From: Candidatus Methylomirabilota bacterium
GTDB lineage: Bacteria; Methylomirabilota; Methylomirabilia; Rokubacteriales; CSP1-6
DNA length: 55,538 bases
Assembly: GCA_036002485.1 (NCBI GenBank)
Contig: DASYTI010000029.1
Coordinates: 1 to 55,538, forward strand
Reading direction: 5' to 3'
Within the stretch, counting starts at the first letter, position 1, and the number at the start of each line of letters is the position of its first letter. Made by a program: the position numbers and the translations under genes. The notes under the pieces are model-generated. The model did no database searches. It was not told the DNA's origin and was given only the letters and a program-made list of their open reading frames with translations. Positions 38,905 to 44,544 of the stretch are shown here, piece by piece.

Positions 38905-38906
38905 GG

Positions 38907-39026
38907 GTACTGGGCCAATTTGCTTCGCCAGATCAACTCAGCTCTCGTCTCGGGGCTGTGCCCCTCAACTCGAACGGCCACGTTCTCGGTCGGGCCTCGT
39001 CTGGCTCGCAACTTGACCCAGTACCG
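38907..39026. repeat. Intergenic structured element with 13-bp terminal inverted repeats
   Basis: The ends GGTACTGGGCCAA (38907-38919) and TTGACCCAGTACC (39014-39026) are inverted copies with one mismatch, and partial pairing continues inward for about 12 nt. The interior contains a 52-nt unit (38932-38983) that recurs at 44409-44460, with a GGGGC-TGT-GCCCC hairpin. There is no coding capacity. It looks like a small non-autonomous element or a structured repeat RNA; nothing identifies a mobilising enzyme. Confidence 0.7.
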
Positions 39027-42332: not shown

Positions 42333-42340
42333 CATCTGAA

Positions 42341-42468
42341 GTTCGAGCTGAGACGCTGCCGACGAGCCGGAGGCGAGGAGAGCGGCGAGGCGAGGGCTGA
42401 GATAGTTCGAGCTGAGACGCTGCCGACGAGCCGCAGGCGAGGAGAGCGGCGAGGCGAGGGCTGAGATA
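42341..42468. repeat. 64-bp tandem duplication downstream of der
   Basis: Two 64-nt copies, 42341-42404 and 42405-42468, differ at one base (G/C at the tenth base of the ACGAGCCGGAGGCG part). The reverse complement shares a 23-nt block beginning ATCTCAGCCCTCGCC with 44389-44411, and the end GTCTCAGCTCGAAC with 44531-44544. This makes it an inverted-orientation member of the same intergenic repeat family. No coding capacity. Confidence 0.85.
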
Positions 42469-44387: not shown

Positions 44388-44544
44388 CTCAGCCCTCGCC
44401 TCGCCGCTGATCTACTCAGCCCTCGCCTCAGGGCTTCGCCCTTCAGCTCGAACTGCCACGCCTGCGGGATCAACTCAGCCCTCGGCTCGCGTCGGCGAGG
44501 CGCCGCCGCTCACCTCGAAGAGCGGGCCCCGTCTCAGCTCGAAC
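44388..44544. repeat. Composite intergenic repeat block between merR and tRNA-Pro
   Basis: At least three related units follow each other. A partial unit begins at 44388 (ATCTCAGCCCTCGCC), a full 52-nt unit lies at 44409-44460, and a diverged unit begins at 44468 with GATCAACTCAGCCCTCG, with a CGGCG-AGG-CGCCG hairpin. The block ends with CTCAGCTCGAAC (44533-44544). Compared with 38932-38983, the 52-nt unit is 43/52 identical at the same length. The area has no credible ORF. Confidence 0.8.

Follow-up and report, generated by a model that had tools for sequence, protein, structure and literature searches.

Here, we describe a short palindromic module, dispersed through the genome of a Candidatus Methylomirabilota bacterium, that is predicted to fold on one strand into a hairpin with two tandem G.A loops and that, with a probability we put at roughly 0.55, propagates either as a mobile element of REP-like, non-autonomous type or as one module within miniature elements. 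As judged from the alignments, its fold, GA loops included, is conserved while the base-paired letters change. We propose more tentatively that mobile palindromes of this kind run through the Rokubacteria family, that what defines them is not sequence or an end tag but a shape, namely two tandem G.A loops formed on one strand, and that a putative non-RAYT protein recognizes them as a folded single strand. The copies within the window, that is, the whole 55,538-nt stretch of DNA that was analysed, are collected in Table 1.

Table 1. Repeat units and carrier elements in the window; bit scores and E values are those of covariance model R1.
Feature	Position	Strand	Evidence
Unit 1 (first noted copy), 40-nt hairpin with two GA/GA loops and 13-nt tip	38937..38976	-	model R1 62.4 bits, E 4.5e-12; fold
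F1 miniature element, unit 1 in one arm	38906..39025	.	inverted ends GGTACTGGGCCAAtTTGC / GCAACTTGACCCAGTACC; element alignment
Unit with 35-nt tip	42340..42401	+	model R1 45.4 bits, E 4.9e-8; tandem repeat D12
Second tandem copy of 35-nt-tip unit	42404..42465	+	model R1 45.6 bits, E 4.2e-8; 98% identical to neighbour
F2 composite, outer boxes 44388-44402 and 44534-44543 around units 2 and 3	44388..44543	.	exact box matches
Unit 2 (second noted copy), 13-nt tip	44415..44454	-	model R1 67.3 bits, E 3.2e-13
Unit 3, 21-nt tip	44474..44521	-	model R1 42.7 bits, E 2.1e-7

The first-pass annotation had reported an ungapped 52-nt match between two copies with 43 of 52 positions identical. This score holds, but one of its coordinates is off by one base: the register given, 38932-38983 against 44409-44460, yields only 12/52 identities, pairing 38932-38983 with 44410-44461 yields 42/52, and moving both copies one base back, to 38931-38982 and 44409-44460, yields 43/52 without gaps. 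The runner-up ungapped match of the first unit in the window scores 31/52 (mean 14.2, sd 3.3) and is reached at two places, one of which, 44383, is a further copy of this box while the other is unrelated; the dispersed repeat is real and stands far above chance in the window. Both copies are intergenic and lie between genes of the same strand, as had been described, every predicted gene in the window being on the plus strand; the neighbours, named from their translations, are hflX-like and pgsA-like genes for unit 1 and a MerR-like gene and a tRNA for unit 2. Three further copies are present in the window, the first of the tandem pair starting 8 nt past the stop codon of a der-like gene whose strand is also its folding strand.

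The central hairpins that first drew attention, GGGGC-TGT-GCCCC and AGGGC-TTC-GCCCT, are likewise present, yet this 5-bp tip is part of a larger hairpin that spans the whole unit and contains two GA/GA loops, and the fold belongs to the opposite strand, where U.G wobbles replace what would be C.A mismatches on the strand originally read. On that opposite strand the 40-nt unit is a single hairpin, GUUC[GA]GCU[GA]stem-loop-stem[GA]GGC[GA]GGGC, in which two boxes pair with each other into one stem with two 2x2 internal loops of GA against GA (tandem G.A). Between the boxes lie stretches of mostly 11, 13, 21 or 35 nt, highly variable in their letters, the shorter of which are themselves hairpins. 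Among 118 distinct 40-nt units, each of the eight GA letters is kept in 115-118, wobbles of the U.G type at three pairs set the folding strand, and 74 tips carry a GNA triloop on that strand. Predicted RNA energies are consistent with this assignment (-16.8 kcal/mol for the folding strand vs -9.7 for the other, lower in 116/118 units); with DNA energy parameters, the lower helices are not predicted. The G-C to A-T change on which the earlier structural claim was built is seen but is restricted: at that position, adjoining the inner GA loop, 112/118 units have G-C or A-T and none has C-G or T-A. Such a restriction is expected next to a Y-GA-R tandem G.A motif, a context that favours tandem sheared G.A pairs, and the G.A pairs of the unit probably share this geometry. 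Swapping every GA to AG reduces predicted RNA stability only slightly, from -16.8 to -15.7 kcal/mol, and the invariance of the GA letters is therefore not explained by predicted energy alone. At the gathering score Rfam identifies only tRNAs in the window, and at E up to 1 it returns three weak, chance-level matches in eight unit-bearing loci.

Conservation at the level of structure, as the first-pass annotation had read it, is borne out by the genome-wide set, which retains pairing through many compensatory changes. In 40 diverse units, gathered by box similarity and aligned on a structure derived from one of them, 95.4% of paired cells are paired and six pairs are doubly changed (43 such cells), with a covariation score of 0.323 vs 0.164 +/- 0.011 for shuffled alignments (0/500 shuffles reaching it); the shuffles ignore relatedness, so that these counts are not independent events. 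All slid registers collapse, to scores of 0.08 or less. In diverged units from other genera, every one of the four GA dinucleotides is retained in 38-39 of 39 cases, and new double changes appear, turning U.G into G-C in the lower helix and C-G into G-C in the middle helix, in an alignment that leans towards structure, having been fitted to the model that found the matches. Paired changes of this sort could in principle arise by mutational palindrome correction, in which template switching during replication perfects inverted repeats and pairing persists without selection on structure. Template switching does yield double changes in hairpin arms, and the ends of both the F1 and F3 elements described below vary while remaining complementary; however, such a process would erase mismatches, whereas no part of the unit is better conserved than its G.A positions and several of its U.G wobbles, and it leaves dispersal unexplained, making it a very improbable account.

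A repeat confined to the two copies first noted would have weakened the structural claim, but many more exist. The exact box pair CTCAGCCCTCGCCTC ... TCAGCTCGAA occurs in at least 111 strict copies in the source genome and in 13-46 copies per genome in four genus mates, with 0 copies in 55 genomes of other genera and 0 matches, in all genomes searched, for a control pattern read backwards. A fuzzy search of the source genome with one box gave 176 matches vs 31 for its reversed-pattern control, and the genomes with the pattern in a named genome collection are Candidatus Rokuibacteriota. Within 410 kb of the source genome the covariance model locates 62 units, grouped into 33 elements, which suggests several hundred units per genome in this genus of uncultured soil and groundwater bacteria, an estimate biased by a sample picked in part for holding copies. 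The same model, built from units of the genus, also recovers diverged relatives at E <=0.01 in many other genera of the family (at least 44 in genome G072, at least 36 in G021, at least 22 in G008, and others too), frequently in tandem, and none at that threshold among the candidates scored in 42 genomes outside the family. Several genomes of the same family and of like size carry no units, which argues against an artefact of composition; G070 is also rich in units, and G005, G006, and G010-G012 are among the family members free of them. We took as chance an Aquiluna contig, the sole match outside Rokubacteria in the genome-collection scan, which is solitary and has the boxes around an unpaired tip, and also two viral matches (L241:12411-12444 and L242:1553-1586) that represent one and the same stretch, shared by a pair of related phage contigs. 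That phage stretch contains both boxes and a palindromic tip, apparently within a reading frame.

Units are gained or lost between closely related species. Nine loci that are filled in the source genome are empty in G004, a sister species at ~90% identity and the nearest among the genomes compared; in one 20-kb stretch, 5/5 elements that could be compared are absent there, and the few loci common to both genomes differ or agree in size. Genus mates G001, G002, and G003 lack an element both at the F1 site, between hflX and pgsA, and at the F2 site; in G004 the F2 site holds only CTATCTCAGCTCC, and a fused box pair is found at another G004 site. This remnant and the fused boxes may be either deletion scars or pre-insertion seeds, and the presence/absence pattern could in part reflect deletion of old copies that left fused-box scars. 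Turnover at this rate also bears on whether the boxes are simply binding sites in double-stranded DNA whose sequence is what a nucleoid, topology, or regulatory protein reads, with the hairpin incidental. REP/BIME sequences in E. coli bind proteins of these types, and the boxes are nearly constant within the genus, but they diverge between genera via compensatory changes that keep the fold, the tips covary, and copies come and go rapidly, so that we regard this explanation as improbable.

Units are found alone, in tandem, nested in a further box pair (F2), or within two families of inverted-repeat miniature elements (F1 and F3). These carriers, about 70-360 bp long, are non-coding, strongly folded, and bounded by inverted ends; their units, from none to several per element, occupy two fixed sites, one in an arm and the other at the apical loop. 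The F1 element of the window, whose inverted ends were located at 38907 and 39024, folds on the minus strand with a z of -8.3, and has no ORF of its own and no visible target duplication. Copies of F1 and F3 that are free of units also fold with GA/GA loops, and carriers and unit may answer to the same recognition. Paired F1 ends in the draft contigs of the source genome all enclose short elements, and unpaired ends are also present; exact element ends were not found. Examples of F3 lie at L043:13067-13187, L204:1477-1577, and L016:1442-1661, with ends GCAGGCCGCTGAAAAAGGCCC, and the family, found in the source genus and also in G072 of a different genus, includes copies both bearing and lacking units at those two sites. 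At L094:1504-1860, an F1 arm carries four tandem units, three of them with near-identical 21-nt tips, which suggests local amplification. CCCTCTCCC...GGGAGAGG inverted repeats, themselves another dispersed palindrome of the source genome, come no more than a few bases after the lone units at L042:667-740, L043:11631-11710, and L035:18248-18330.

In the source genome, 29/33 elements are intergenic though ~83% of the sequence is called coding. The main rival to mobility takes this hairpin to be an RNA element that acts in transcripts, at 3' ends or between co-transcribed genes, in stability, processing, or protein binding, with copies kept for their use. The wobble pairs and RNA energies favour a one-strand RNA fold, and units from other genera show a bias towards the sense strand (16:5 on the 5' side and 19:5 on the 3' side), often starting at, or supplying, the stop codon of the preceding gene; at L205, L207, L221, L232, and L237, an in-frame stop codon of that gene lies at or within the unit, and the repeat seems to supply the last few residues of several proteins. 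However, the gene calls, for the source genome as well as for other genera, come from a simple custom codon-usage finder, trained for the other genera on the source genome, and sense insertion is perhaps better tolerated because the folding strand carries stop codons. In the source genome no orientation bias to flanking genes was found (15:13), units 1 and 2 fold antisense to their neighbours, and orthologous genes of the sister species do without the unit. We thus consider a role in transcripts unlikely as the reason for the repeat.

The closest working precedent for the unit would be E. coli TnpAREP, a protein that recognizes the REP hairpin in single-stranded DNA, for just one of the two strands and in part via conserved stem mismatches, the REP stem having a conserved AA-GC mismatch (PMC8266576). 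Like the REP/BIME/REPIN sequences associated with RAYT, the unit is a short intergenic palindrome present in hundreds of copies, in single, paired, or composite form, with a strand-specific hairpin and conserved non-Watson-Crick stem positions. Unlike them, it has two GA/GA loops rather than one bulge, occurs as modules nested in other miniature elements, and has no conserved GTAG, which lies within 15 nt of just 14/246 copies on the 5' flank and 2/246 on the 3' flank. As a partner, the RAYT/Y1 transposase (PF01797) is absent in three of the five genus genomes, namely the draft assemblies of the source genome, G001 (99% complete), and G003; G002 and G004 have one such gene each, with no units in the 3-kb loci around them. 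The Y2 transposase is absent in unit-bearing G004, and reverse transcriptase is absent in unit-bearing G003 and G004. In the source genome one unit (L248:825-870) sits ~700 bases or less from a reverse transcriptase gene, and units beside candidate enzyme genes (2 matches in 11 loci) are not a regular occurrence.

Palindromes without a dedicated transposase have been reported in the CGTC-tagged REPs (PMC3733652), though here the stem architecture differs and a CGTC tag is found at the unit ends in just 4/246 and 7/246 copies. With neither tag evident in the sequence and RAYT missing in three of five genus genomes, we would not place the unit among GTAG-type or CGTC-tagged REPs. Carriers F1 and F3, being small and non-coding with terminal inverted repeats and a strong fold, resemble MITEs such as Correia/NEMIS, RUP, ERIC, and RPE (PMC2229807), but have no visible target duplication and have ends that vary with compensation, and the unit itself has no MITE-type inverted repeat at its ends. 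By description, the modular, interspersed BOX elements of Streptococcus pneumoniae, with their variable number of inner modules, are also similar (PMC3049150 and general knowledge), though the present modules carry GA loops and can also stand alone or be nested. In the literature searched, we found no account of such repeats specific to Rokubacteria.

Returning to mobility, we propose that an enzyme encoded elsewhere would recognize the folded single strand, whether DNA or RNA, through its G.A loops and would cut or copy it. Recognition of the fold would leave paired letters free to drift provided that pairing stays, and insertions would persist mainly between genes and in the hairpin arms and loops of other miniature elements. 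The dispersal, turnover, and structure-first conservation of an element that has no gene are all consistent with a folded strand being mobilized in trans. Against it, the target duplications expected from a cut-and-paste transposase are not seen: none is visible in the carrier flanks listed, and the filled/empty pairs are too diverged at their junctions to show them.

Since unit numbers range from none to tens among family genomes of similar size, a presence/absence search for the partner gene is directly possible. The unit family bears on the general question of how palindromic repeats spread without a known transposase, and offers a clear natural example of a bacterial repeat family whose conserved identity is its fold, non-Watson-Crick pairs included, while the paired letters drift.
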